Assembly: GCA_964017185.1 (NCBI GenBank)
Contig: OZ024880.1
Span: 35,058,329-35,122,328, forward strand
DNA from: Rugalucina vietnamica
Lineage: Eukaryota > Mollusca > Bivalvia > Lucinida > Lucinidae
DNA: 64,000 nt
Direction of reading: 5' to 3'
In this document: positions 13,966 through 56,200 of the stretch, in pieces
How positions within the stretch are numbered: position 1 is the first letter of the stretch
Layout of the letters: every line of letters starts with the position of its first letter
The notes under the pieces: model-generated
The model's database searches: none
What the model was told of the DNA's origin: nothing
What the model saw: the letters and a program-made list of their open reading frames with translations, nothing else
Translations under genes and position numbers: made by a program

Positions 13966-14528
13966 ATGAGCGGGCTGCTTCGGCCCTAACCTGTTCCCAC
14001 AGGTTGTGTGGGCGGCTTAATTTTGAATTTAGAACGTTATGAAAAATGTTTTGAGATGGGTGATAAAAACTATACTGAACAAAGACTTACTGCAGTATGA
14101 AACACGTGGCTGTTACTGGACCTCGAAGTCAACCAATTCTTCGCTTTTTGATGACTGTTCTCTCTCTGTTTCTTATAGTTTGTCAATGTAGCATGCTGCC
14201 TTGAATTTGCCGGGATGATTTTTTTCCAGTTTTTGTAGGCCAGTAAGTTCTTTATCATGTACGAATGTCGGTAATTTGTGTAACCCGAACCCGAGTTCCG
14301 AGATAGCATACCCGAGTTGAAAATTTAAATCTTATAACACAACCATAAAAAAGAAAATAAAGAATATTTAACTATTTGCTTTAACTAAATACACCATTCT
14401 CCATTACTTTTATACCAAATATTCCAAATATGTAATCTTATTTGCTTTTACAAGCATTATTTCGGTTTTGAACTTGGTAAAATGTGTAGGCGGAATTTAC
14501 CAAGGGAAGTAAATCGCGCATAACTAAA

Positions 14529-14880
14529 AAAGTACAAGTAGGCAAAGATCAGGAAAAGGCGCAATCAGAAAAAGACTCCCACTCCAAAAACAAAGGTGGG
14601 AAAAAACCAAACAAACAATCAGGTACTTATACCATGAAAACATTTCGTAAGCCGAATGAGCAGCTATTTTCCCAATAGGTGGCCACTCAGTTACCTTAAC
14701 TAAAAATATGCAAACATACATAAGGCGCCAACAACACAAAAATATTTTAAACACCAAGACATAAAAAAAGAACCAACACAGAAGTATCGACTTGGAACGA
14801 TCAGTAACACAAAGTTACTGGCGGGTTTAAATCGATTTTACACGGCCGTAACCTCACCCTCAGCTTCTGCAGTAAAAACA
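14529..14880 (-). repeat. Family-B repeat copy (left palindrome arm)
   Basis: Copy of a ~300-350-bp family marked by AGGTACAAGTAGGCAAAGATC, GGAAAAGGCGCAATCAGAAA, CCAATAGGTGGCCACTCAG and AACGATCAGTAACACAAA. Other copies: 24,380-24,729 (mirror), 17,640-17,840, 18,530-18,572, 45,005-45,310, 58,150-58,445, 58,690-58,830 and 61,423-61,858 (split). The class is unknown; it could be a SINE or a MITE. Confidence 0.7.
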
Positions 14881-15144
14881 GTAATAAAACACGGTACCGA
14901 CGGCGGGAACCCGGTGACCAAATTAATATTGCGCGCAAAGCTGAGTATGAAAATTACAACAACTGTAGTTTACAGTATCCCCCCCCCCTGTTTTTATGCT
15001 TCCTCAAAGCAGTGATTGTGGATACACGTAAAAACCGACTCAGTGAGGCGGTTCTAACGAATACCCACAATTTATGTTTTAGACCGAAAAAGGGAAAGAA
15101 AACAGAGATGTACTCGAATTAGAGTGAAACAAAACACATATAAT

Positions 15145-15372
15145 TGAGCCACCGCATAAGAAAACCAACAATCGGCATATACGAAAACAAAGGCGCAGAC
15201 CAGCTACTCAGTAGCTTCGAAGCTGATCAGCGCCTTAGTTTTCGCTACATGGATAGTACGATTCCCGGCTTTACATTTTAAAATAAAATCATCAATTTAA
15301 ATAATCCAGCCTTAAGCCATCCCCAGTGCTTGTACAGCTCGGTTTGTGTCGGACCTGTTCGGAAACCATGGG
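15145..15372 (+). repeat. TGAGCC-family MITE, copy 8 (in palindrome arm)
   Basis: Left end TGAGCCACCGCATAAGAAAA with the usual GGCGCAGACCAGC / GCTGATCAGCGCC stem. The right terminus has been lost. The same damaged copy is present in the other arm (about 23,884-24,111). Confidence 0.7.
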
Positions 15373-17967
15373 CATATTTTCAGAAAAAAAAAACGACACA
15401 AGCGAATGCCGTTTTCGCTATGTTCAGTCAGGGTCTCCAAAGACCCTGGTTTAGTACACAGCGTGCTCAACTCCTTTATTCTAATTGAATGATTAGTGGT
15501 GTTTATCGTTCCAACAAACAATTTTTCAGTCATGCCGAGACAGAATCACCGCCTCTTGTGTATTCAGTTTGGGGTACATTTGTGAGTAGCGCTACTCGCT
15601 GTAATAAGCGGATATTATTTGTTTCTGATAAACAGCCATATAGGATGATTATATTTCACTGGAAAGCTGTTATTTTATTCTTTTACAAAATATATCTTTC
15701 AAGTATTTAAGGCAACTATGACTGTCATTTTATTAATGAAATGTTTGCACAGTACAACAAAATAGACATTGTAACTTGTAGTAAAGAAAAGAATATAGCT
15801 CTTTCGCGCTTATTATAAGAAATTTGCGAAATTGAGGTGCAAAACTGCACGGAAGTCAGACAAAAAATGACATAATTTTGACACTGGTTGCATCAACGGG
15901 TAGTAAGATTGCGGCGAAAAATGACTCCGGTAAGTTTTGTAACTATTAATTTGTTTTCAAGGGTTGATTTTTAAAAGCAATAATCAAGTAAATTGTTAGT
16001 TGTTATCATATTTACTTAATATTTGAATGTCAAAATGCTTCTGCTGACGTAAATATTGCGTTAATTATTTCATTGCAACATTCTTAATTTCATTGCTTTA
16101 TAGCGTTTCAAAAATGTCCCCGTCCAATTTAAAAAAAAAAAAACACTTCTGAACTATATTTTCTGCATGCAAATTTTCATCATGATTGGACGTAAAATAA
16201 AACAATGCTTGTGTTTGAATCAGCTTTTCATAAATGTCGCATTTTGACAAAATTACGTTATCGTGTATGTAACGTCACTTATTTTATACTTAGCAGTGAA
16301 ATTAATGGATTTCAAAAAATGGATAAAAGTGATATTTTCACTGCAGAATTGATATTGATATTTTCACTAGTAACTGATATCAGCCGATATTTTCACTGTA
16401 GAGTTTGGATTACTTCTGACGTTTCCATTCACTTGACGTCATTAAATGTGCCTCACTTCAGAAATTCAAATGCCTATAACTCCGTTATTTACGAACGAAA
16501 ACATAAAGTGTGGGAATTCATTTTCTTAGTTAGAACGTTAGGAACAATGTGGTACCAAAATTATTTGTGTTTTCAAAAATTTTTGGTTTTTGCATTTTCA
16601 CCGCCTGCTTTGTGAATAGGAAAAAACCCGTGTATTGTATAAAATAAAAAGAAAAGAAAATTTACTTTTTAACCGTAAATACCAAATATATTTCATCTCG
16701 TGACTTGAAAACATCTAAATTTTCAACTCACTCTATGAAATATATTTGGTATTCACCTCAAAAAAGTAAATATCCTCTATTTACAGGTGACGTTATGTGA
16801 CGTTCCGCAGTTGTACCCAAACTTTTCACGTCGCGTCTGTAAGTCGCTGCGCGCTCCAGGCGCGTTTGGGCTAAAAAAAATAAATAAATAAAAAAAAAAG
16901 CATGCTTAAATTTTTAGTAGAAGCTTGGCGTGTTCAGGGCGTGTGTCTTACACGTTTCGAATAAGTTCCACGCGCGTTACAGGCGAGTTGAATACGCCGT
17001 GATCTTTTAGGCATGCCAGTGTACGCTGCATGTGCTCTCCGATTCATCTTGACCGTGCCCCAAGCGTGTGTGAGACACGTGTTGAACGTTTTCCGCGCGC
17101 CTGTAGTGCGCTAAGCATGTTTGGGAGTAACACAAACGTACTAAAAATTTGAGCTATTTTATACGTCCGGTACAAGCCCCAGTCACGCACTGCTGTTTGA
17201 CTTCTAAAGCGAGTTAAAAGAACAAATTAATTTTCATACGTCTTAAATCTTCAGCGTGTTGAGATTTTCCATACGCCCGGCGCGCGTTTGGGTATACGCT
17301 AATGTGCGACTGCTGTTGTACACACAATCTATGTTTTCAAGAGAATATGAGCTCATAAGCTACTTGATGTTTTGGATCAAAATAATTACAGTTTCACTAT
17401 AGATCACTATATGAAAAGGATTTAAAGGGGGTAAATATTACATGGACATGTTTGCGTGATGCTCTGCTGAAATGTCGGATGACTGTGTGTCGAAATTATT
17501 CTGATTTAGACTAAATTGAAAATGGACAGGGACAGAAAAATCTAAAATATAAAATATTCCAGTAGTTTAACTATTTACATATTGTTGGAGAAGTCGGCAT
17601 GTGTTTGTTTCGTAATTCTTATAGGACTAATCAAGTAGCTTATAAGGGTAGAGCTATCGCTTTACTTTTAGTAAAGTTCGGATGATTGAGTGACCGCCTA
17701 TTGGGAAATAGCTGCTCACTCGGACTACGATATGTTTTCTTTATAAGTACCTAATTGTTTTTAGTTTTTCCCAACTCGATTTTTGGAGTGAGATTTTTTC
17801 TGATTGCCCATTTTCCTGATCATTGCCTTCCCCATGTTCTCGTTCTTTTTTTATCCGCATACACAGATATTGAAGATTTCTTATGACAACAAATGATGCA
17901 ACCGCTTACATATAGGAGATAAACCGTATGAAAATAATTTGTCGTATAGCCATCAATTATCAAAATG

Positions 17968-22345: not shown

Positions 22346-24993
22346 ATGCTTTTTTTTTTATTTATTTATTTTTTTTAGCCCAAACGCGCCTGGAGCGCGC
22401 AGCGACTTACAGACGCGACGTGAAAAGTTTGGGTACAACTGCGGAACGTCACATAACGTCACCTGTAAATAGAGGATATTTACTTTTTTGAGGTGAATAC
22501 CAAATATACCAAATATATTTCATAGAGTGAGTTGAAAATTTAGATGTTTTCAAGTCACGAGATGAAATATATTTGGTATTTACGGTTAAAAAGTAAATTT
22601 TCTTTTCTTTTTATTTTATACAATACACGGGTTTTTTCCTATTCACAAAGCAGGCGGTGAAAATGCAAAAACCAAAAATTTTTGAAAACACAAATAATTT
22701 TGGTACCACATTGTTCCTAACGTTCTAACTAAGAAAATGAATTCCCACACTTTATGTTTTCGTTCGTAAATAACGGAGTTATAGGCATTTGAATTTCTGA
22801 AGTGAGGCACATTTAATGACGTCAAGTGAATGGAAACGTCAGAAGTAATCCAAACTCTACAGTGAAAATATCGGCTGATATCAGTTACTAGTGAAAATAT
22901 CAATATCAATTCTGCAGTGAAAATATCACTTTTATCCATTTTTTGAAATCCATTAATTTCACTGCTAAGTATAAAATAAGTGACGTTACATACACGATAA
23001 CGTAATTTTGTCAAAATGCGACATTTATGAAAAGCTGATTCAAACACAAGCATTGTTTTATTTTACGTCCAATCATGATGAAAATTTGCATGCAGAAAAT
23101 ATAGTTCAGAAGTGTTTTTTTTTTTAAATTGGACGGGGACATTTTTGAAACGCTATAAAGCAATGAAATTAAGAATGTTGCAATGAAATAATTAACGCAA
23201 TATTTACGTCAGCAGAAGCATTTTGACATTCAAATATTAAGTAAATATGATAACAACTAACAATTTACTTGATTATTGCTTTTAAAAATCAACCCTTGAA
23301 AACAAATTAATAGTTACAAAACTTACCGGAGTCATTTTTCGCCGCAATCTTACTACCCGTTGATGCAACCAGTGTCAAAATTATGTCATTTTTTGTCTGA
23401 CTTCCGTGCAGTTTTGCACCTCAATTTCGCAAATTTCTTATAATAAGCGCGAAAGAGCTATATTCTTTTCTTTACTACAAGTTACAATGTCTATTTTGTT
23501 GTACTGTGCAAACATTTCATTAATAAAATGACAGTCATAGTTGCCTTAAATACTTGAAAGATATATTTTGTAAAAGAATAAAATAACAGCTTTCCAGTGA
23601 AATATAATCATCCTATATGGCTGTTTATCAGAAACAAATACTATCCGCTTATTACAGCGAGTAGCGCTACTCACAAATGTACCCCAAACTGAATACACAA
23701 GAGGCGGTGATTCTGTCTCGGCATGACTGAAAAATTGTTTGTTGGAACGATAAACACCACTAATCATTCAATTAGAATAAAGGAGTTGAGCACGCTGTGT
23801 ACTAAACCAGGGTCTTTGGAGACCCTGACTGAACATAGCGAAAACGGCATTCGCTTGTGTCGTTTTTTTTTCTGAAAATATGCCCATGGTTTCCGAACAG
23901 GTCCGACACAAACCGAGCTGTACAAGCACTGGGGATGGCTTAAGGCTGGATTATTTAAATTGATGATTTTATTTTAAAATGTAAAGCCGGGAATCGTACT
24001 ATCCATGTAGCGAAAACTAAGGCGCTGATCAGCTTCGAAGCTACTGAGTAGCTGGTCTGCGCCTTTGTTTTCGTATATGCCGATTGTTGGTTTTCTTATG
24101 CGGTGGCTCAATTATATGTGTTTTGTTTCACTCTAATTCGAGTACATCTCTGTTTTCTTTCCCTTTTTCGGTCTAAAACATAAATTGTGGGTATTCGTTA
24201 GAACCGCCTCACTGAGTCGGTTTTTACGTGTATCCACAATCACTGCTTTGAGGAAGCATAAAAACAGGGGGGGGGGATACTGTAAACTACAGTTGTTGTA
24301 ATTTTCATACTCAGCTTTGCGCGCAATATTAATTTGGTCACCGGGTTCCCGCCGTCGGTACCGTGTTTTATTACTGTTTTTACTGCAGAAGCTGAGGGTG
24401 AGGTTACGGCCGTGTAAAATCGATTTAAACCCGCCAGTAACTTTGTGTTACTGATCGTTCCAAGTCGATACTTCTGTGTTGGTTCTTTTTTTATGTCTTG
24501 GTGTTTAAAATATTTTTGTGTTGTTGGCGCCTTATGTATGTTTGCATATTTTTAGTTAAGGTAACTGAGTGGCCACCTATTGGGAAAATAGCTGCTCATT
24601 CGGCTTACGAAATGTTTTCATGGTATAAGTACCTGATTGTTTGTTTGGTTTTTTCCCACCTTTGTTTTTGGAGTGGGAGTCTTTTTCTGATTGCGCCTTT
24701 TCCTGATCTTTGCCTACTTGTACTTTTTTAGTTATGCGCGATTTACTTCCCTTGGTAAATTCCGCCTACACATTTTACCAAGTTCAAAACCGAAATAATG
24801 CTTGTAAAAGCAAATAAGATTACATATTTGGAATATTTGGTATAAAAGTAATGGAGAATGGTGTATTTAGTTAAAGCAAATAGTTAAATATTCTTTATTT
24901 TCTTTTTTATGGTTGTGTTATAAGATTTAAATTTTCAACTCGGGTATGCTATCTCGGAACTCGGGTTCGGGTTACACAAATTACCGACATTCG
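22346..24993 (-). repeat. Right arm of giant palindrome
   Basis: Inverted, nearly identical copy of 14,262-16,903 (2,648 bp). It carries the same nested repeats at corresponding places, showing the arms were copied as a block. The 9-bp duplication at about 22,497-22,514 (two tandem ATACCAAAT) distinguishes it from the left arm. Confidence 0.9.
24380..24729 (+). repeat. Family-B repeat, boundaries fixed by empty-site comparison
   Basis: Insert begins TTACTGCAGAAGC and ends GTACTTTTTT. The equivalent position at about 22,259 reads straight through. This gives the clearest limits (about 350 bp) for the family-B repeat in the window. Confidence 0.65.
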
Positions 24994-25449: not shown

Positions 25450-25494
25450 CTTACTTTTTTCTTACGACTCTTACGATTCTTACGACGTTAACAT

Positions 25495-28488
25495 CTAATT
25501 AGGCTCTGCAACCTCTGTTGATGTGTTTGGATGTCTTTGCCAGTGTCTTGTCCTTTCGCCGGGAATATAGCACCAGGGGTTGAACTTATGGGGATGCCCA
25601 TGCCAACACTTATTAAGTCTACTCTTAAAACTATTGAGAGTGGGTGCCATAACAGTATGTTCTGGGAGCTCATTCCACTGCTCTACAACTCTGTTGCTAA
25701 AGTAATTTCCTCTGATATTCAGTCTAAACCTTTTCTTGTAGATTTTGAAAGAGTGACCTCGTGTTCCTGTATACTGCGACATTGTGAACAGTTTCTCTTT
25801 GTTTACCATATCAATGTCATTCATGATTTTATAAACCTGTACCATATCAGCCCTTTCCCTTCTGTATTCTAATGATGGCAAGCCTAAAATTTTCAATCTT
25901 TCTGGGTATGTTTTACCTCTCAAGCATGATAACATTCGAGTTGCTCTTCGTTGAACATTTTCAATTGCAATCATATCCTTTTTGTGTTGTGGTGACCACA
26001 CAGTGGAGGCATACTCCAGGTGTGGTCTCACCAATGATTTGAAAAGATTTAGAAACATATCTTTATCCATAAATGTGAATGTTTTAAAAATTAGTCCCAG
26101 GTTTCTATTGGCAATTGAGATCTTACTACCAATGTGTTCTCCAAATGATAAAGCACTGTCAATGATTACACCTAAGTCTTTCTCTGATTCAACCGTTTCT
26201 AACCTGACTTCTCCATCTGGTGACTGCATTGTGTAAATTTGTCCCATAGAATTTTTCCCTACATGAAGGTGATGGCATTTCAGAAGGTTAAAAAACATTT
26301 CCCAGATATCGGCCCATGTTACAGCCTTGTTTAAGCATGATTGCAGAATTTCAACGTGTTCTATTCTTGATACTCTCCAATAAATCTTTGAATCATCAGC
26401 AAAAAGTCGTATGCAGCACTGTATGACATCTGGAAGGTCATTTATGTAAATGACAAAGAGAATGGGTCCCAAGACACTGCCTTGAGGCACTCCGGATGTG
26501 ACTGGCTTAGTACTGGATGATTGTCCATCCACGACGACTTGCTGGGTTCTGTTTGCCAAAAATTCTTTGATCCATTTGTATACTTTTCCACGAATTCCAT
26601 ATCCCCATAACTTTTTCATTAATCTTCTATGTTGTAATTTATCGAAGGCCTTGGAAAAATCTAAGTAAATAATGTCAACGTCATCACCTTGATCTAGTGC
26701 CTCTGTTAGGTTGTCAAGAAATTCTAATAATTGGGTTACACAAGATTTACCAGATACGAAACCATGTTGAAAGGGACTAAAAAAATCATTTCTTGTCATA
26801 TGTTCAACTATGTGGTCTCTTATAATTCTCTCCATAAGTTTGCATGGAACCGATGTTAAACTGATGGGGCGGTAGTTTTGTGGTTTTGTTCTAGGTCCCT
26901 TTTTGTAAATTGCAGTCACGTTTGCTTGCTTCCAAATACTGGGTAAAACAGATTCTTGTAATGACTTTTTAAAGATCATAGTTAATGGTGTTATTATTGA
27001 TTTTTTACACTCTTTCACTAGTTTTGGATGAATATTGTCTGGACCTTGTGATTTTGAAGGTTTTAGACGATCTATTGTTTTTTCAACTAATGTTTCTGTT
27101 ATTTCAATATGACTTAAAACTTCATCAAAATCTCTATCAATAAATTCAGGGAGAGCTCCTGGATCTTCTGTTTCAAAAACACTTGCAAAATAACTGTTCA
27201 GCACCTCTGCTTTAACTAGACTATCGTTGGTCAGGGTACCATTTTCTGTTTCTAACTGCCCTAGTTTCCCCTTGGTTTTCTGTTTAGATCTTACATAACT
27301 CCAAAACAATTTCGAATCAGTTTTTATCTTGGTGGTCAGGTCTTTTTCATACTCATATTTAGATCTTCGCATTTCAGCTTTTACAATGTTTCTAGATTCT
27401 TTATAAATTTCATAATTTTGATTTGTTTTACAGTGGAGATACTTTTCCCATTTGGTATGCTTTTTTCGGATAGCTTCATGGCATCTTTGGGTTATATATG
27501 GAGACTTCTTAGCCGACCCAGAGGAAACCTTACTCACTGGTATGTGGGATTCTATTAAATTGGATAATTTCTCTGTAAGTTTTTCCCATGAGGCAGATAA
27601 GTCACATCCATTGAATTCTTGGAGCCAATTCAAACGGGCAAGTTCTCCAGACAAGCTGGTATAATTTCCTTTGAAAAAAATTAATTTTGTAACCAATGTT
27701 TGTGTAATTTCAGTATAACAGTTAAATATAAACTCAAGTTGAAGATGGTCACTTTTACCAAGCCCTGACATGTGGTTTATGGATTCAATCATGTTTTCCT
27801 CGTTAGTGAATACTAAGTCTAGTAATGATGGTTCAAACCCAGATCTGTACCTGGTATAGTTCTTGACATGTTGATATAAAAAACAATCCCTGACACACTC
27901 CAGGAACTGGGATGCAATATGTACTTCAGTAGATCTTGAATTGTTTATGTTCCAGTCAATTTCTTTCAGGTTAAAATCACCCATTATCAACAAGTGGCTG
28001 GGGTTTAAGTCCTTGACATTTAAAAACATTTCTAAGAGTTTCTGATTGTTATCTGAATTGCTACTGGGACTCCTATATACACACCCTATCATAAGGTTAT
28101 CAGAACCAGTCAATTTTATATTGCACCATATACATTCTTGGAAATCATTGTTAAGTTTTGTAAGTGTTGCAGGAATTTCAGATTTGACATATAATGCACA
28201 TCCACGTCCAGTTGTTAGATCTGAAGTAAACATAGAATAACCTTCGATTTCATAGTGCGAACTATCTATATCGAAATTCGTGTTTTTCGGCAAAATTTCA
28301 GTTATTGCTATTATGTCTGGAGATTTGTCTTCAATGTAACATTTAAGTTCAGTTTGTTTTGTAACAGTGAAACAATCAGCATTTGTATATAAAATTTTCA
28401 ACTGATTAAAACTCTTGTTAAAAACCTTAAAATTTCCACCATTTATTTTGTTATGGGTGGCACTATTTACATCATTAAAACTTGCTTG
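25495..28488 (-). CDS. Retrotransposon ORF2: AP endonuclease and reverse transcriptase
   Basis: Open from the codon after the ORF1 stop (28,488) to TAG at 25,495, 997 residues. Numbering from the TTG at 28,401, the APE-type endonuclease shows N7 (YTNAD), E35 (AITE), YRSP at 109, GDFN at 141 and SDH at 217. The reverse transcriptase follows with QGPDNIHPKLV, NYRPISLTSVPCKLMERII, YLDFSKAFD, SGVPQGSVLGPILF and FADD at about 666. The C-terminal region has SLVRPHLEYASTVWSP and FRLNIRGNYFSNRVVEQWN, typical of Jockey/CR1-group ORF2. No stop or shift interrupts it, so the copy may be recently active. There is no ATG before residue 57, which lies beyond the catalytic N and E; the mode of initiation is discussed in the findings. 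Confidence 0.88.
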   Translation of the reverse strand, partial: QASFNDVNSATHNKINGGNFKVFNKSFNQLKILYTNADCFTVTKQTELKCYIEDKSPDIIAITEILPKNTNFDIDSSHYEIEGYSMFTSDLTTGRGCALYVKSEIPATLTKLNNDFQECIWCNIKLTGSDNLMIGCVYRSPSSNSDNNQKLLEMFLNVKDLNPSHLLIMGDFNLKEIDWNINNSRSTEVHIASQFLECVRDCFLYQHVKNYTRYRSGFEPSLLDLVFTNEENMIESINHMSGLGKSDHLQLEFIFNCYTEITQTLVTKLIFFKGNYTSLSGELARLNWLQEFNGCDLSASWEKLTEKLSNLIESHIPVSKVSSGSAKKSPYITQRCHEAIRKKHTKWEKYLHCKTNQNYEIYKESRNIVKAEMRRSKYEYEKDLTTKIKTDSKLFWSYVRSKQKTKGKLGQLETENGTLTNDSLVKAEVLNSYFASVFETEDPGALPEFIDRDFDEVLSHIEITETLVEKTIDRLKPSKSQGPDNIHPKLVKECKKSIITPLTMIFKKSLQESVLPSIWKQANVTAIYKKGPRTKPQNYRPISLTSVPCKLMERIIRDHIVEHMTRNDFFSPFQHGFVSGKSCVTQLLEFLDNLTEALDQGDDVDIIYLDFSKAFDKLQHRRLMKKLWGYGIRGKVYKWIKEFLANRTQQVVVDGQSSSTKPVTSGVPQGSVLGPILFVIYINDLPDVIQCCIRLFADDSKIYWRVSRIEHVEILQSCLNKAVTWADIWEMFFNLLKCHHLHVGKNSMGQIYTMQSPDGEVRLETVESEKDLGVIIDSALSFGEHIGSKISIANRNLGLIFKTFTFMDKDMFLNLFKSLVRPHLEYASTVWSPQHKKDMIAIENVQRRATRMLSCLRGKTYPERLKILGLPSLEYRRERADMVQVYKIMNDIDMVNKEKLFTMSQYTGTRGHSFKIYKKRFRLNIRGNYFSNRVVEQWNELPEHTVMAPTLNSFKSRLNKCWHGHPHKFNPWCYIPGERTRHWQRHPNTSTEVAEPN

Positions 28489-29589
28489 TTATAAAGTCTC
28501 ATCCCCCACAGATGGTATTAGGCCAATACTGTCATTGGCCAGTCCATGTTGGGAATCTAACCCCCCTATAACTGTTTCATCCATAGCTATTGTTGTGTTA
28601 TTGTATGCATCCAGTGACCTACTTGTATTTGAATATGTGGATACATTAAGATGCGGCATGTCCCTGATTGGGCTAATTTCGTGAGAGGTATTCATTGCTA
28701 ATGGTGACTGGTCACGACTAATTTCGCCCCCTTGACTTGATTGCCTTAATGGCGATGTTTCTCTGTTTTGTTGATCAGTCTGGTTACGTTGGTTTCCTTG
28801 TCTGCGTTTTTTCCTCTCCTGCCTCTGTATCGGGGTTAAATCCTTACTTAAAATGACTCTTTTTAGATACTCTGGCGCCTTTTCGGCAATATACTTGGCA
28901 TTTTCAAGGAGTTTTTTCTTATGCACCTTAGATTCTAGGACAATTTTCAAGGGTCTGGTTTTATTTGGAGCCTTTTTCCCCAGACGGAACCAAGTAATCA
29001 TACTTGGGGTTTCAAGACCTAAGCATGCACATAGTTGTGCAAAATCTTCAGCATCAGCTGCCTTATTGTCCTGGCCTGTGGGGAGATTATGTTCTCGCAA
29101 GTTAAACAGTGTAATGTTAGTCTCTCTTCTACGCCTATCTTCCAACTCACTATTTCTTGCATCGACCAGCTTGTTTATATCCTCTTTAACACTGTTACAT
29201 ATTTCAACCTTCATGTCTGAGACAGTTTTATTGGTTAATATATTACTAGTTTCCAGTTTCTTCATTCTACTTTCCAGCTTTGTCATTCTTACATCATTTT
29301 TGCTCAAAGATTCTTTCAGATATTTTGTAATGTTGTCTAGGGAAGGAAAGGTAGCCCTACAGCTTTTGCAGGACCACAGGAAGTCCTCCATTTCTCCCTT
29401 GGTGAGATGGACAAATAATTCATGGCTTATGCCGGCACATTTTAGACAATAGTCCAGTTTACACCCCTGGCACATTATCTTCTCTGATATTAAGGAATCA
29501 CACTTTTGGCAACTGGTTTCAGGGTCACTAGAGTCCTGTCTGGCTCTTTTTTTCATTGCACTATCATTTGAATCAAGATAAGATGCCAT
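28489..29589 (-). CDS. Retrotransposon ORF1 protein (zinc finger, coiled coil, RRM-like)
   Basis: 366 residues starting at a true ATG (MASYLDS). Residues 27-77 hold eight cysteines in PHD/RING-like spacing (C27/C30, C40/C43, C48/C51, C74/C77), with Cys where a PHD finger usually has His. Residues ~85-150 are heptad-like and charged (coiled coil). Residues ~150-240 resemble the RRM-like module of LINE ORF1 proteins (RRRETNITLFNLRE; FRLGKKAPNKTRPLKIVLES). A basic segment, RQERKKRRQG, follows near 255, then a Gln/Ser/Asn-rich tail. By family analogy it binds the element's RNA and forms the nucleoprotein particle. It ends ...GDETL at TAA, directly followed in the same frame by ORF2. Confidence 0.85.
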   Translation of the reverse strand: MASYLDSNDSAMKKRARQDSSDPETSCQKCDSLISEKIMCQGCKLDYCLKCAGISHELFVHLTKGEMEDFLWSCKSCRATFPSLDNITKYLKESLSKNDVRMTKLESRMKKLETSNILTNKTVSDMKVEICNSVKEDINKLVDARNSELEDRRRRETNITLFNLREHNLPTGQDNKAADAEDFAQLCACLGLETPSMITWFRLGKKAPNKTRPLKIVLESKVHKKKLLENAKYIAEKAPEYLKRVILSKDLTPIQRQERKKRRQGNQRNQTDQQNRETSPLRQSSQGGEISRDQSPLAMNTSHEISPIRDMPHLNVSTYSNTSRSLDAYNNTTIAMDETVIGGLDSQHGLANDSIGLIPSVGDETL

Positions 29590-30310
29590 GATTGGTGAAT
29601 TCTATAATGAATTTTATTGTTCAGTATATCTGACAGATTCTATGATTGATCAATATATACATTAGAGTCAATATCTCTATTTAGGCTGTACCATTTTGAC
29701 AATATTTAGTTATTTTATACTCATTCACAATCAAAGTCAAAGGCAAACTGGGATGAGGCAAATTCCACTTCACACAGATCCCAGCTAAAGTCAGAATTTA
29801 ACTACTAAATATTCTAGTACTAAGTTTATTCTCACAATTTTCATCCATTATCATTTGGTTTATTCATTCAATATAAACTGGGTCTTTTCAGTATTTCACT
29901 CTGAACTATATAATTGATTTTATATTATTTAATTTCGCACAATCATTTTTTATTTTATTTTTATTTTTATTTGCTGAGTCTATATCTCAATGTAAACATT
30001 TAATTCAATAAATATGGCCCTTTAAATATCAAATAATGGAAAATGGCAAATTTTCTTCACACAAATTCCATTGACTTGCATAAATTTGATAATGTTTTGG
30101 TATTGTTTGTAGCCAACATTGTGATTTCCACCAAACTGTAATAACAAATCCAATCAAACTTATGTGGAATCAAGCTCGAAACTGTGAATCTGCCCGCTAA
30201 TGAACTGATACTGCTTGACATGTGTCACGGGCTCCAGTTCGAGCATGGCAAATTAAACTTCACACAAGCTCACATCAACTTGCAGCCCGAGACCAGCCAG
30301 CCCTGATCAC
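29590..30310. other. Inter-ORF region with repeated CAAATT...TTCACACA motif
   Basis: Non-coding, 720 bp. The composite GGCAAATT with TTCACACA a few bases later occurs near 29,758, 30,046 and 30,249. It could be 5' untranslated sequence of the retrotransposon or unrelated sequence. Confidence 0.4.
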
Positions 30311-31048
30311 TCAGTAGCACTGCTTCTTCACAACTTCAGAGAGCTTTCTCAACCAATATTGAGACAGCTTTTTTCCACTGTGGATGCCATCCACATATAA
30401 ACTGAAAGTGGGCCTATATTTATTTTTTTTCTTGCTCTTATTTTTCCTAGTCTTTAATAGGGCTGAATTGAAATTAGGGGAACATCGGCCATTTTCACGA
30501 TTAATTTGCCTGATTTTTTTGTTAATGTCTTGAATCATTCGATTGACTATCGTGTCATCCTCCGCAAAAATTTCAGGATGTTCATGACCATGATTTCTGT
30601 TCCATTCTTGAATGCAAATAGATGGTATTTCTAAAAAGGTTACTGGGACTCCCTTAATGCTAGCATAATGTAGAAAACTGCGAAATTTGTTAATCAGTTT
30701 TTCTGGGATTTTGGCTTCTTTAGGAAGCAGGTGAAGAATGCCATCTGCATCTTTTGCACAGAAGTCACACGTGCCTAAAAATACAAAAAGCTCAATATTA
30801 CCATACCGCCTTTTATAATTGTTTACCTGACTTTTTAGCCAGTCAATGCCTTCTAACGCAGTACGGCCTCCTTTATTTTTCCAAACAATACCTCTTTCAA
30901 TTTTGTTACTTTCTCTCCTTTTAGCCTCATTTGCTAAATATTTCCCTTTGCTGTCTGCAAAAATAATTGGCACTGAACGCCTTCTTGGAAGGTCCTTATC
31001 TAAATCAGAAGTGCCCAACAAATACTCGTCAATTTTCGATTCATTCAT
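30311..31048 (-). CDS. SGNH-hydrolase-like ORF upstream of retrotransposon ORF1
   Basis: Single-exon ORF of 245 residues. The first ATG is at 31,048 (MNESKIDEYLL); the open frame begins six bases earlier at a TTG. Motifs fit the SGNH/GDSL esterase order: IIFADSKGKYLANE near residue 30 (block I with Ser, Ala in place of the first Gly), LFVFLGTCDFC near 90 (block III-like), and YVDGIHSGKKL near 220 (block V Asp-x-x-His). A Lys-rich linker precedes the last block. SGNH/esterase domains are known in ORF1 proteins of some CR1-type retrotransposons. Here the domain is a separate ORF in the same orientation, 720 bp upstream of ORF1. It could be an extra ORF of this element, part of an older element, or a host gene. 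Confidence 0.6.
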   Translation of the reverse strand: MNESKIDEYLLGTSDLDKDLPRRRSVPIIFADSKGKYLANEAKRRESNKIERGIVWKNKGGRTALEGIDWLKSQVNNYKRRYGNIELFVFLGTCDFCAKDADGILHLLPKEAKIPEKLINKFRSFLHYASIKGVPVTFLEIPSICIQEWNRNHGHEHPEIFAEDDTIVNRMIQDINKKIRQINRENGRCSPNFNSALLKTRKNKSKKKNKYRPTFSLYVDGIHSGKKLSQYWLRKLSEVVKKQCY

Positions 31049-32220
31049 GGGCAACGTAGCGGATATGCAAAAAATCTTTCAAAGAAATTTACCAGTTTTG
31101 ATCCGCAAACATCAAAGTAATTTCAACGAATAACCGAACAAATTTACAAGAAATCAATAAACTAGAATCTAAATATCTTGATTCTTAAAAATTTGTCACT
31201 CGATGACAACTTGCTTTCCGTATTTTTCAATTTTTTTGGGCACCCACTCATTAAATTTTACACGGCAGCCATGTTTATTTTCCATGAAAGGGCATCCCCT
31301 AAAAATGACAATTTCACCACAAAATGGAAGTTTTTCCACAATTCCTTCGTAGAAACAAATATCTAGCACAAAATGCGTCTAATTATCAACAAAAAACCCT
31401 GTCACCACAACTGGAACTTAATCTAAAAATTTATTTCTTCTTCGAAATCGGAGCAATTAAAATCAGCGTCCATCAACTAGACTGGTTCCCGACTACTTAC
31501 AGTATTGCCTCGCTGTACATTCTAGATTTTCTAATGGCGACATCAGTTATGCATTATCCTCAAAAATCGAAACAACTTCAGACAATACCGCCAGATGTGC
31601 ACAATGTCTCTGTTCTGGAGAACATTTCCTACATGTAACTGTTTCTGCAGCTTCAGTTATATGGGATAAGGCTCTTTGTAGAAATTCTGGCCTTGGTCTT
31701 CACGTCTTTGCAAAGGAAAGTACACCCAAGTCTGAATATATTATGTGGCACTCGGTTGGTTCTTTAAATACACCACGGTGGCAAGGTACATCGCTTCCTT
31801 TATCCTGTTTATTGAAAAATGTAATTTATTTACCTTGTGTACATGCGCACCTCTTCCTTCACCACAAATACAATGGAGATGGAGAAAAATCTAAAGAAAA
31901 ATTAGCGAGTGATGAGAAAGTCTAAACTATTTTTATTTGACTGAACACGGAAATAACTAAGGAGCTCAGCTGCACTATTGAAAATATACGTATATCTTAT
32001 TAAGACAATAAGGGCAATCCCAATTTTGGGAATTTTAATTCCAGCATCATGGTGAACATAACTTCTGTTTACATTGAAATCCCCATTTAAATACCCGCTG
32101 TCATATGCGACGTTTGTCCTCATTGCGTTTTCTGTAAACACGTGTAGAACTATGTGAAACACGTGGTATTTCTAAATTTATAAACCAGAAAAGTATGAGT
32201 CTTGTCTTATTCATTTTACA
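31049..32220. other. No recognisable gene
   Basis: AT-rich; short open frames lack any resemblance to known proteins. It may include the 5' flank of the retrotransposon. Confidence 0.45.
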
Positions 32221-36591: not shown

Positions 36592-38806
36592 CTGAGAAAT
36601 AAATTCAGCTGACATTTCTCTAAATTCACATCACATGTCAATAATGTATACTAGTCCTGACTTTACTAAATTAAACGATTTTATTACACAAAGAATTCCG
36701 AATAATGTGCGTTTCGAAATACCGTTTATAACGGAGACTCAGGTCTCTGAATTCATAAACGGATTAAACATAGCAAAAGCAACTGGTCTTGATGGCATCG
36801 GACCCAGGATACTCAAACTGGCGAATAATATTTTGGCACCATCAATAGCAGCTCTTATCAACAAAAGCATAAAAACAGCAATATTTCCCGAACAACTTAA
36901 AGTGGCTAAGGTTTATCCCATACATAAAGGTGGTTCTAAATCTGACCCTGTAAACTATAGGCCAATATCTATTTTACCTACAATATCTAAAATATTTGAA
37001 AAACACATCAACAAACATCTTATGGCGTTTCTAAATAAATATAAGTTAATACATCCTAATCAATCCGGTTTCAGACAAAAGCACAGTTGTCAAACGGCTC
37101 TTGTTAAATTGATCGACCAATGGTTAACGTGTATAGATAACGGAGATTTAGTTGGTACGGTGTTTCTTGATTTTCGGAAAGCTTTTGATCTTGTCGACCA
37201 TTCTTTGCTCATAAAAAAACTTTCTCTATATAAATGCAAACATACCACGCTAAATTTATTGTCTTCTTATTTAAACACACGTCAACAGGTTATCGAATGC
37301 AACCAAGGTATACCAAAACCAGCACTGGTCAAATCAGGCGTACCCCAAGGTTCGATCTTAGGGCCAACCCTATTTCTAATTTTTATAAATGACTTACCAC
37401 TACATATGGACCATTGTTTTATTGACTTTTTTGCAGATGATGCTACTTATCATATCAGTGGAAAAAACGAAACCGAGATAGCACCAAAGCTACAACATGA
37501 TGGAGATAAATCAAAAACTTGGGCAAAACAACATAAAATGAGAATCCACTATGATAAAACTACATGTATGGTGCTTGGAACTAGACCTAAAACCCGTGAA
37601 GCCTCTGCACTTAACATTCAAATAGATAGCAATACATTAAAACAAGTTAACAAACAAAAGCTGCTGGGTGTATTTATTGACGAAAATCTAACATGGACGG
37701 CACATATAGATTACCTATGCTCGACTATATCCTCTAAAATCTCACTTTTAAGACAACTATCCAAGTACATTCCGACTGAAATCCAAAAACTTTTTTATCA
37801 GGGATATATTCTTCCATTAATTGATTATGGTTCAAACACCTGGGGAACAACTTCAAAATATAATATTGAACGAATATCGAAATTGCAAAAACGCGCAGCT
37901 CGCATTATTCTAAAAACAGACTACAACACACCGTCCCCAGAAATGTTCGCTGAACTAGGTTGGCCAACAGTTCCAAACAGACATAATTATAATAAAGCAG
38001 TTTTAACTTATAAAGCATTAAATAACCTTACTCCCGAGTATATTTCTGACTTGATTAAACCCTTATCTGAAATCCATACCCGTAATCTACGTTCAGTTAC
38101 AGACGGCTCTTTGAAGGTACCTAGATCCAAGACCACCCTGTATGATAGTTCATTTTCGGCTTCAGCGCCAAAACTATGGAATGCTTTACCGGGCGAGATA
38201 AAAACGTCAACTACCCTTGACAGTTTTAAAAAGGCAGCAAAGCATCATTTTATGTTATGTTCTTAACATCATTTGAGTGCAACAATGATATGTGATTTTG
38301 GCCACTTTAGCTAATATAATTTTGTCTCAACTGCTGCAGGCATATTATGTACCTGCAGAGCTGGGAGGTGGTTCGTGGAGCAGCTCTTCGTAATGCTCCG
38401 GCTCCATCATGCAAGTATCTTTCTTAATCCATTTTGAAGTCTGATCTATCAAAAGATTTGTCAGTATATTTTTACCGTGAGCAATGCTACAAATGTAGAA
38501 AAAATATTTTATCCAAATGTTAAATTTTACCGATTCGTAAAATACTAGTCACCAAGCTAAATGTTTTATACGCTCATTCGTGTTTTAAATTTAATAGTTG
38601 TTTTATCCGTCAAGTGTTCTATTCCTTTTATTTATTTATTATTTTAATGTTATTTTAAGAGAATATGTATTGTTTGTGCTCATTTGATTGTTTGTATATA
38701 TGTACATAATTGTTATACAGAGGGCCGCAAGGTAGAATAGCTGATGAAGCTAAGCGCGTCACCCTCTTAAAACATTGTATAAATAAATAAATAAAATAAA
38801 TAAATA
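36592..38806 (+). mobile_element. 5'-truncated non-LTR retrotransposon, intact reverse transcriptase
   Basis: Plus-strand insertion lacking the endonuclease and ORF1. The reading frame opens after a TGA at about 36,592. After the coding part come about 510 bp of 3' untranslated sequence and a terminal (TAAA)n tract at 38,781-38,806, the usual tail of a target-primed insertion. It differs clearly in sequence from the element at 25,450-29,640. Confidence 0.85.
36635..38266 (+). CDS. Reverse transcriptase of truncated non-LTR retrotransposon
   Basis: 543 residues from an in-frame ATG. It contains the fingers/palm landmarks KATGLDGIGPRILK, NYRPISILPTISKIFEK, QSGFRQKHSCQTAL, VFLDFRKAFDLVDH, SGVPQGSILGPTLFLIFINDL and the catalytic FADD, then LLGVFIDENLTW and a C-terminal block APKLWNALPGEIKTST. 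It matches the Jockey/CR1-like reverse transcriptases common in invertebrates. The endonuclease is absent because of 5' truncation, so this copy cannot mobilise by itself. The long frame without stops suggests a fairly recent insertion. The ATG is incidental to the truncation. Confidence 0.85.
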   Translation: MSIMYTSPDFTKLNDFITQRIPNNVRFEIPFITETQVSEFINGLNIAKATGLDGIGPRILKLANNILAPSIAALINKSIKTAIFPEQLKVAKVYPIHKGGSKSDPVNYRPISILPTISKIFEKHINKHLMAFLNKYKLIHPNQSGFRQKHSCQTALVKLIDQWLTCIDNGDLVGTVFLDFRKAFDLVDHSLLIKKLSLYKCKHTTLNLLSSYLNTRQQVIECNQGIPKPALVKSGVPQGSILGPTLFLIFINDLPLHMDHCFIDFFADDATYHISGKNETEIAPKLQHDGDKSKTWAKQHKMRIHYDKTTCMVLGTRPKTREASALNIQIDSNTLKQVNKQKLLGVFIDENLTWTAHIDYLCSTISSKISLLRQLSKYIPTEIQKLFYQGYILPLIDYGSNTWGTTSKYNIERISKLQKRAARIILKTDYNTPSPEMFAELGWPTVPNRHNYNKAVLTYKALNNLTPEYISDLIKPLSEIHTRNLRSVTDGSLKVPRSKTTLYDSSFSASAPKLWNALPGEIKTSTTLDSFKKAAKHHFMLCS

Positions 38807-53278: not shown

Positions 53279-56200
53279 GCAGTAATGTCAACAACAAAGC
53301 AGCAATATATCTCGCAAGACAAAATTCACATTGTTTTCTGCAACTACGTTTATGTGCAAAACGGACCAAACTGCATTTGCTAAAAGTTTTCTTCCTGTAC
53401 CAGGCGTCCGTATGTTTTGTCTTAACTGTCAAGGATATCCTAGTACAGATTCTCTCGCGAAGAGGCTCATTTGTAGTCTAGACGATTTGCATGGTAATTA
53501 AAATAACATGTTAGTGTCAAAAAGGACAGTTGTGTGTAATATACTATATATGAGCCGCCTCGTGGGAAAACCAACAATGTGGTTTCCGAACTGGTCTGGC
53601 ACAAACCGGCCTGTACAAGCTCAGAAAAGAGCTAGAAGCTTGCAATTTCGGATTTAAGTAGAAGAGAAATTGTACTATCCGAGTAGCGAAAACAAAGGCG
53701 CTGATCAGCTTCGCGGTCACCGCGAAGCTGATCTGCGTCTTTGTTTTCGCCTATGCAGATTGTTGGTTTTCCCATGAGGCGGCTCATATTATAGTATAGA
53801 TACATCCATAGCATGGAAAGATTTTTAAATGTTTTGAGCCACGCAGAATAAGCTCAGCCTGAAGATCAAATCACTCTGATAAGTGTCTTAACCATTTATA
53901 TTGAGAGGTACTGTGGTACATGGCAGACTCGTTAGTCATGGCACCATGACTGAGATGATCGAGTTATCACAGGCCACGTTTATAAAACCATACCTTGCAC
54001 TTTCATAAGTCCTCATTTGATACCGAAGTTGGAAATAATAATAACATTGTGTTCTGTGTTGTCAATCTCTACTGTGTATGAAAGAAATAAAATGCAACAT
54101 AAAAACATTGAAATAAATAAAATAAAACGTTGAAAAAAGTGTTAACGGTTTAAATACTCATTTTGGCCTGGCACTCCAAATTTTCCCAGGGGGTCGAAAG
54201 GCATAAACGTTACTGGTTCGACGTACCCCAAAACGCGACATTGGACCTGTAAAAATAAAATGTCTAGTGCATTTCCTTCCCATTTCCTCGAGTCACAAGA
54301 TACTCCTTGTTAAGTAATAACATAATTCTTCCTTCTCGTTGCAGCGCCCCTCACGCCAGAATCTCAGACCAAAGAAGACGAGGCGGTAACTGCTACACTA
54401 GCCGCACCAGTCGAAGACAGACACGCCGTTAGCGCTCCAGACCTTGATAGAATAGCCGAAGCCCAAGCTACTAAGGACCGTTCAGGGGGAATATCAGAGA
54501 GTGCAGTCGGGCAGGCCGCAATGGCAGAAGTGGCGATGGGACAGAAAGCCTCCTACATTCCCGCTGAGGGTGATGACGCCGGTAGGGAGACACCCGCGGT
54601 GACGGAAGCGGTGGCGCATGCGTTAGACAGAGCCACTGTACCCAGTAAAGTTGATATAGAACAACCACAAACAGAAACAGTTGAAACACAACAGGAACCG
54701 CCAGGTAAGCATACCAGTACCAGAGTTATTGAGAGATATAAACTAATTGAGCCGCTGCATCAGAAAACCAACGAAATTCTTAGGCGAAAACAAAGACGCA
54801 AATCAGCTGTGTAGTAACTGCACAAGCTCAACTAATAATTCACATTTATAAGGCTGTCCTCCAATCATGCTCAGCAGTCACAATGATACTTTCATTCCAA
54901 CTAAATTGTTTAGTTTTCAAACATGTTTAGTTTTCAAATAAAACAGACCGGTCGACGTATTTATTATTTAATCCAAATACTATGGAAATTCTGAACATCA
55001 TTAAGATAAACAACTAGTTCAAGCTGTTTAGAAACCCAATTGAAACTAAATTTGTGCGACTGTCTACGGTGTAAAGTGAAACGGGTCACTTTTCATTGCT
55101 AATAAGGCATGTTACGCCCTAAGATGATCTTAGAAATCAATTATATTAGTCTTCTTTCACTGATTGTATTTCTTGATCTTTTTGTAGCTCCCGCGGTTCA
55201 TGCAGAAATGGATGAGGGACCAGCAAAAACAGATGAGACTGCAGCAGCACCTGTACAGCAAGAGGTCACAGAGGCACCAAAGGCGGAACCACAGGTTTCA
55301 CAGGAACCAGAGGAATCACAAAAAACAACAGAAGCAATTCCAGAACCACAAGCTGAAGCAGCACCAGAACCCCAACCAGAACAGATAGCTGAGTCTGCAG
55401 TAACAGAAACGCCAAAAGAACCAGAGAGTGCAGAACAAAAACAAGAGGAAACTGCAGAACCAGCACAGGAGGCAGCACAACCAGAGCCAGAGGCAGTGAC
55501 AGCCTCAGAGGAACCAAAAGCGGAGGCAGTGCCAGAACCAGAATCGAAAGAGCCTGAAAAAGCTCCTGAGCCTCAGACAGTGGAAGCTGCACCACAGTCA
55601 GAAGCTGTTGCGGAACCACAGTCAGAAATAGTAGAGGCTACACCAGCACCGGAACCTGAATCAACTGAGGCTGCACCTGCTCCGGAGCCTCAATCAACTG
55701 AGGCCGCACCAGCACCTGAGCCTGAATCAACTGTGGCTGCACCAGCACCAGAGTCTCAATCAACTGAGGCCGCACCAGCACCAGAGCCTCAATCAGCTGA
55801 GGCCGCACCAGCACCTGAACCCCAATCAACTGAGGCCGCACCAGCACCTGAGCCTGAATCAACTGAGGCCGCACCAGCACCTGAGCCTGAATCAACTGAG
55901 GCTGCTCCAGCACCTGAGCCTGAATCAGCTGAGACTGCACCAGAACCAGAGCCTGAATCAACTGAGGCTGCACCAGCACCGGAGCCTGAATCAACTGAGA
56001 CTGCACCAGCACCTGAGCCTGAATCAGCTGAGACTGCACCAGCACCTGAGCCTGAATCAACTGAGGCTGCACCAGCACCGGAGCCTGAATCAACTGAGAC
56101 TGCACCAGCACCAGAGCCTGAATCAACTGAGGCTGCACCAGCACCGGAGCCTGAATCAACTGAGGCCGCACCAGCACCTGAGCCTGAATCAACTGAGGCT

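Follow-up and report, generated by a model that had tools for sequence, protein, structure and literature searches.

The stretch of Rugalucina vietnamica DNA analysed here (contig OZ024880.1, positions 35,058,329 to 35,122,328; 64,000 nucleotides, hereafter the window) carries on its minus strand a whole CR1-like retrotransposon of about 6.04 kb (25459..31494, ends approximate), and this report concerns the junction between two of its open reading frames (ORFs), ORF1 and ORF2. ORF1 (28489..29589, minus) is open for 370 codons, encodes 366 amino acids from its first ATG at 29589, shows a weak zf-PHD-like Pfam match (E 0.0032, under the curated cut-off) and ends with TAA at 28489..28491. ORF2 (25495..28488, minus), an open frame of 997 codons that ends with TAG, encodes an apurinic/apyrimidinic (AP)-like endonuclease (27739..28335; Pfam Exo_endo_phos and Exo_endo_phos_2, the latter with E 2.1e-15) and a reverse transcriptase (26248..26904; RVT_1, E 1.4e-32, with PDB matches to LINE-1 ORF2p). 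The junction reads GAG ACT TTA TAA CAA GCA AGT TTT, so that ORF2 continues in the frame of ORF1 across a single stop. A linker of 29 open codons without AUG (28402..28488, minus) precedes a TTG at 28401, and the first in-frame ATG is residue 57 counted from this TTG (residue 86 of the open frame), beyond the endonuclease Asn and Glu residues that an earlier note on this DNA had named. That note had described the single in-frame TAA, the 29 codons, the lack of an AUG ahead of the endonuclease and a fusion of 1,364 residues, and all of this agrees with the sequence and its translation (366 + 1 + 997 residues). The strongest feature of the junction was absent from it, namely UGUAAAUA (28464..28471, minus), a PUF-type UGUANAUA motif 17 nt past the ORF1 stop; UUUUAAU stands 8 nt past the stop (28474..28480, minus), and its UUUU recurs at the same spacing among the families that share this junction type. 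As shown below, ORF1 and ORF2 share one frame over one conserved stop, and the motif starts 16–33 nt past the ORF1 stop in 32 of the 33 CR1-like families with an assignable stop in the 1.09-Gb R. vietnamica genome, from which all family counts are taken. It is thus well supported that the junction feature is real, conserved and wider than the earlier note saw.

A 241-bp query spanning the junction gave at least 21 genome matches at 20 loci, all of which were fetched. Thirteen loci of the window family cover the stop (L009–L021; L022 begins downstream of it and was left out), and TAA is kept in 13/13, by which the idea that the window holds a single mutated copy is rejected. Both ORFs are intact in three of these loci, L009 (the window copy), L012 and L013, which differ by 12–30 positions per 4,107 nt. 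The synonymous and nonsynonymous codon changes between pairs of them are 8:4, 23:7 and 21:7, and this synonymous excess among near-identical intact copies indicates that recent replication took place with the TAA present. In a sister family, all six loci carry TAG at this position; ORF2 can be read straight on in the ORF1 frame in copies L023 and L024, and the other four are more damaged. Between the two families the proportions of synonymous (pS) and nonsynonymous (pN) differences are 0.84 and 0.21 in ORF1 and 0.68 and 0.17 in the first 510 codons of ORF2, thus synonymous sites are near saturation, yet a stop is retained. An in-frame stop that is conserved although the surrounding sequence diverges is what readthrough would lead one to expect. 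The results that the earlier note had named as refuting its reading (a sense codon, an ATG or a frame offset in the majority of the family's full-length copies) were looked for and not found.

To place the junction among its relatives, the first 267 codons of ORF2 were used as a protein query, with at least 145 genome matches listed (144 of 2,717 candidates scored), and the junctions of 60 listed matches were fetched in three batches. When these were clustered together with the window and sister families (80% DNA identity across 150 nt), 38 families resulted (29 after two batches and nine more from the third). Of these, 33 have an assignable ORF1 stop, and L067, L078, L122, L132 and L136 were dropped because they have no clear ORF1 end; in L068, L071 and L072 the stop was placed by eye, and L139, a relative, stands in for the L045 family, the L045 copy having its ORFs out of register. 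Eleven of the 33 families, the window family among them, share the ORF1/ORF2 frame across one stop and are called in-frame here. Among the other 22, ORF2 shows a phase shift of 1 relative to the ORF1 stop in 14, a shift of 2 in five and none in three (L076, L126 and L135), where another stop follows immediately in the ORF2 frame. The in-frame families have UAG followed by G (UAG-G) in 10/11 cases and UAA-C in the window family only, whereas the others mostly end ORF1 with TAA or TAG and a different next base, with UAG-G in 1/22 and one TGA (UAG-G in 10/11 versus 1/22, Fisher p = 1.3e-6; TAG as such in 10/11 versus 6/22, p = 8e-4).

The ORF2 stops served as a control for this preference. Nineteen were fetched (TAA 11, TGA 8, TAG 0), to which the window and sister families add TAG, so that TAG makes up 2/21 ORF2 stops versus 16/33 ORF1 stops (p = 0.003). 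Since the ORF2 stop is TAG in only 2/9 in-frame families examined, the UAG bias is not a general one. As a side observation, UGA is rare as an ORF1 stop (1/33 versus 8/21 ORF2 stops, p = 0.0013). On a tree of the endonuclease domain (n = 22; 10 in-frame families and 12 others), the class label needs two changes versus 7.4 in shuffles; the in-frame class is thus clustered and may or may not have arisen once. Because of this clustering, the 11 in-frame families cannot be counted as independent, which makes the Fisher p values too favourable. The stop context that the earlier note had stressed, TAA followed by CAA, gains no support from the survey: as UAA-C is confined to the window family among the in-frame families, the CAA context is an exception. 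The leaky readthrough context of the tobacco mosaic virus type is CAR-YYA, which the window does not match because its CAA precedes GCA, and the other ten in-frame families have G as the next base.

The feature that the families have in common lies downstream of the stop. In the first 27 families, the UGUANAUA motif was found in 26 versus 0.05 expected from shuffles (range +14 to +32). The family that departs from the 16–33 nt spacing, L056, has UGUAAAUU at 23 nt and UGUAAAUA at 47 nt. Outside the junction stretch of the same loci, eight sense and three antisense occurrences were counted over 26,126 positions; this rate is three times as high as in shuffles and would raise the expectation to about 0.16. 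Within 60 nt past the stop, all occurrences in the 27 families checked are on the sense strand, and the sequence on either side of the motif varies, with a tendency towards A and T (27 families). Moreover, TGTAAATA is the top 8-mer in the 60 nt past the stop (26/33 families), the best unrelated 7-mer there reaching nine families, and in the 60 nt before the stop no 7-mer occurs in more than four of the 33. The motif had been noted ahead of reading batches two and three, and it was then present in 22/22 of their families with an assignable stop. Its fifth base is A in 26, U in four, C in two and G in one of the 33 families, with L056 counted at +47; when the fifth base is left free, UGUANAUA agrees with the PUF/Pumilio consensus, and PMC5855632 gives it as a PUF consensus.

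In the in-frame class, the motif usually stands at 17 nt and is preceded by UUUURRY at 8 nt. A genome search for this pattern with its spacing gave 76 places versus 52 for the reversed control. Ten of the 76 are copies of the window family, all with TAA, and four more matches that were inspected held no intact element. In L062 the motif is read in another frame inside the open ORF2 frame, so it acts as an RNA word and not as a peptide, and a conserved peptide x-V-N is ruled out as its explanation.

The two classes also differ in what stands at the end of the motif. An ACG, AUG or AUU overlapping the motif end is found in 0/11 in-frame families versus 14/22 others (ACG 9, AUG 4, AUU 1; p = 5e-4), and in phase with ORF2 in 0/11 versus 10/22 (p = 0.013). 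The in-frame families L023 and L056 have neither an AUG nor a near-cognate start between the stop and the endonuclease core (AAG and AGG not counted); this check for starts did not properly cover L054 and L139. The linker frame is kept across lengths of 32–124 codons in ten families, and the linker protein is weakly constrained. The earlier note had proposed folding the 100 nt downstream of the stop in search of a pseudoknot; local folding of this stretch revealed no common stem (27 families with 60 shuffles per family, mean z −0.09), the folding covering neither pseudoknots nor long-range pairs. In the absence of a shared excess of stability in these 27 families, a common local stem is not favoured as the stimulator, although four in-frame families are mildly stable (values below). 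A small GCC(A/G)CC...GGUGG(A/C) helix was seen in the window family and its sister.

Some further candidates were tried and rejected. No NPGP, the 2A/StopGo motif, occurs in the translation near the junction. Premature polyadenylation does not account for the region, AATAAA or ATTAAA lying within 70 nt in 4/27 families. A programmed frameshift in the families outside the in-frame class is not suggested either, as no common slippery site was seen by eye in the last codons. Separately, ORF1 ends in CCC-TTT-TAR in L058 and L080, and in these two only; as their ORF2 follows in the +1 frame, this is a candidate site of +1 frameshifting.

Three features thus vary together, namely a shared frame, UAG-G and the lack of ACG, AUG or AUU at the motif end. 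We put at about even the chance that the in-frame families produce ORF2 by readthrough with the aid of a docked protein, probably of the PUF type, with reinitiation in the other families; judged from the sequences compared here, readthrough would be the likeliest route to ORF2 for the window family. The terminating ribosome covers about 12–15 nt past the stop, which would place the motif just outside it. A ribosome would occasionally read through the ORF1 stop and yield an ORF1-ORF2 fusion, and UGUANAUA would be occupied by a protein, in the likeliest case PUF/Pumilio of the host, that stands directly ahead of the terminating ribosome as an obstacle, the role played by the pseudoknot in murine leukaemia virus. 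In the families outside the in-frame class, docking at the same site probably favours termination-reinitiation, in many cases at an ACG or AUG overlapping the last A of the motif. Readthrough is known to increase when a protein, an oligonucleotide, a microRNA or dCas13 occupies the RNA right after a stop (PMC11015002). Readthrough, the first choice of the earlier note, is in this way favoured for the in-frame class, short of proof, with the fusion as its putative product. A more tentative extension, to which we would give rather less than an even chance, is that host PUF/Pumilio proteins might be a general recoding switch, giving readthrough where the frames are shared and reinitiation where they are not, by which enzyme output would be tied to PUF-rich cells such as germ cells.

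Besides the clustering of the in-frame class described above, several observations weigh against readthrough helped by a PUF-type protein. The window family itself carries UAA-C and not the UAG-G of its class, and the motif is mutated in its copies L019 and L021; elsewhere it is mutated in L121 and lacking in L123 and L127 within the stretch fetched. Furthermore, the motif is common to families where readthrough of a single stop cannot work, so that taken alone it is no pointer to readthrough, and PUF is named as the most likely ligand from the sequence word itself. Starts are available in some in-frame linkers, with an in-frame AUG in L049 (codon 29) and L066 (codon 47) and ATA, TTG and ATT in the window linker. 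Protein constraint on the linker is weak (pN 0.33 and pS 0.42 between the window and sister families; nonsynonymous and synonymous substitution rates, dN and dS, of 0.35 and 0.73 between L049 and L051). In addition, mild downstream stability is seen in the in-frame families L023 (the sister family; z −2.05), L052 (−1.6), L054 (−1.35) and L041 (−1.27), so that structure may contribute in some in-frame families.

The main rival is termination-reinitiation in all families, in which the small subunit would be held near UGUANAUA and start ORF2 nearby, at ACG, AUG or a non-AUG codon, and the shared frame would be a by-product of the fixed spacing from stop to motif. Such a mechanism fits the fact that this distance is kept whatever the frame relation, that an ACG, AUG or AUU at the motif end is in phase with ORF2 in 10/22 families outside the in-frame class, and that L079 has an in-frame AUG directly after its stop; moreover, silkworm SART1 uses termination-reinitiation (PMC5972666). 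However, these motif-end codons are missing from all 11 in-frame families, the two in-frame families named above have neither an AUG nor a usual near-cognate start before the endonuclease, and the UAG-G of 10/11 is left unexplained; we regard reinitiation throughout as somewhat unlikely. The motif may instead serve the fate of the RNA, shielding the bicistronic transcript from nonsense-mediated decay or targeting it to germline particles, with ORF2 made by unaided low-level readthrough or reinitiation. The motif also follows the ORF1 stop in L074, L076 and L126, where more stops separate it from ORF2, and PUF sites are best known for control in the 3′ untranslated region (PMC9944931, PMC5855632); localisation, however, would need no spacing of 16–33 nt from the stop, and we consider this explanation unlikely.

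A little less likely again is that the ligand of UGUANAUA is the ORF1 protein of the element and not a host PUF protein, and that this protein controls the output of ORF2. ORF1 directly precedes the site in 33 families, and its product would be made beside it, but a word fixed at seven of eight positions with a free fifth base fits the PUF consensus, and the word stays the same across families whose ORF1 ends are very different. Removal of the stop in the RNA, by splicing or by A-to-I editing, appears very improbable. One A-to-I change turns UAG into a tryptophan codon, but the TAA of the window would require two edits. Because new genomic copies arise from RNA, editing or splicing should have left its mark in some of them, and the stop is lost in 0/13 loci of the window family and 0/6 of the sister family, a small sample in which rare events could be missed.

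Of the remaining parts of the element, ORF0 lies upstream of ORF1 (30311..31048, minus) and has 245 amino acids from its first ATG, within a frame of 255 codons open from stop to stop (30311–31078). Its divergence from the sister family (pS 0.90, pN 0.18) indicates purifying selection. ORF0 has 114 genome matches, several of which, judged by coordinate, lie directly upstream of related elements or families with an in-frame stop, and no clear relative was found in Pfam or PDB. The 5′ limit of the element at 31494 is common to the copies L033 and L034, and the 3′ limit near 25459 is common to copies as well; the 3′ end is a short tandem repeat of TCGTAAGAA-like units (25459..25485, minus), with similar ends in most other copies compared. 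Short 3′ tandem repeats and variable 5′ truncation are typical of CR1/L2 elements. Here, an AP-like endonuclease is combined with a reverse transcriptase of the long interspersed nuclear element (LINE) type, short 3′ tandem repeats take the place of poly(A), and 5′ truncation is variable. The element is a three-ORF CR1-like retrotransposon without long terminal repeats (non-LTR) that was apparently recently active, the label CR1-like being based on its domain make-up. An inverted repeat of 2.6 kb (14262–16903 and 22346–24993), 100% complementary in four abutting blocks and with a 5.4-kb spacer, adjoins the 3′ end of the element. Elsewhere on the plus strand, an open frame of 556 codons (36596–38266) resembles by eye a fragment of another LINE-type reverse transcriptase, and a long open frame (55106–57163) is made up of 33-bp repeats that encode units resembling EPAPESTEA.

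It has long been asked how elements of the LINE type produce the enzyme that their downstream ORF encodes, and one eight-letter RNA word at a nearly constant distance from the stop makes this question testable with small reporters. The junction hints that a recoding stimulator may be a host RNA-binding protein and not an RNA structure, and a clade that seemingly uses readthrough where its relatives reinitiate, with the same site kept, would be a natural experiment in the evolution of recoding. No relative was confirmed in bacterial genomes or viral contigs (one scan each, with six short peptides). Within a partial coverage of the literature, we recognised no description of a LINE whose ORF1-ORF2 junction has an in-frame stop or a PUF site, although one may exist.

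Among known systems, protein-dependent recoding is familiar from the frameshifting of arteriviruses, in which nsp1beta takes part. The CR1 subgroup with PHD and RRM domains in ORF1 (Metcalfe and Casane 2014, PMC4120745) is similar in its PHD-type ORF1, the match being weak here, and in an ORF2 with endonuclease and reverse transcriptase, but the parts of that paper drawn on describe no conserved in-frame stop, downstream motif or separate upstream ORF, and the terms "stop codon" and "in-frame" are absent from its main text. SART1 and human LINE-1 are likewise non-LTR elements with an unconventional synthesis of ORF2 past the ORF1 stop, whereas SART1 has overlapping stop and start codons plus a downstream structure and LINE-1 a 63-nt spacer (PMC5972666). 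According to PMC5009743, linear stimulators go with trans-acting factors, and recoding stimulated in trans by nsp1beta with the poly(C)-binding protein depends on a protein as proposed here, although it is a frameshift and involves a virus protein. Further systems are the readthrough of VEGFA, with hnRNPA2/B1 bound 9 nt past the stop, and readthrough induced by dCas13 or let-7a, in which likewise a molecule bound just downstream is the stimulator; they differ in concerning host genes or engineered constructs and a different protein and site (PMC11015002). Murine leukaemia virus gag-pol has a 3′ pseudoknot (PMC5009743), unlike the linear motif without a common local structure in the present non-LTR elements, but it resembles them in that a single stop separates two ORFs of the same frame, the second of which carries the reverse transcriptase, and in its UAG, which most of the in-frame families have as well.

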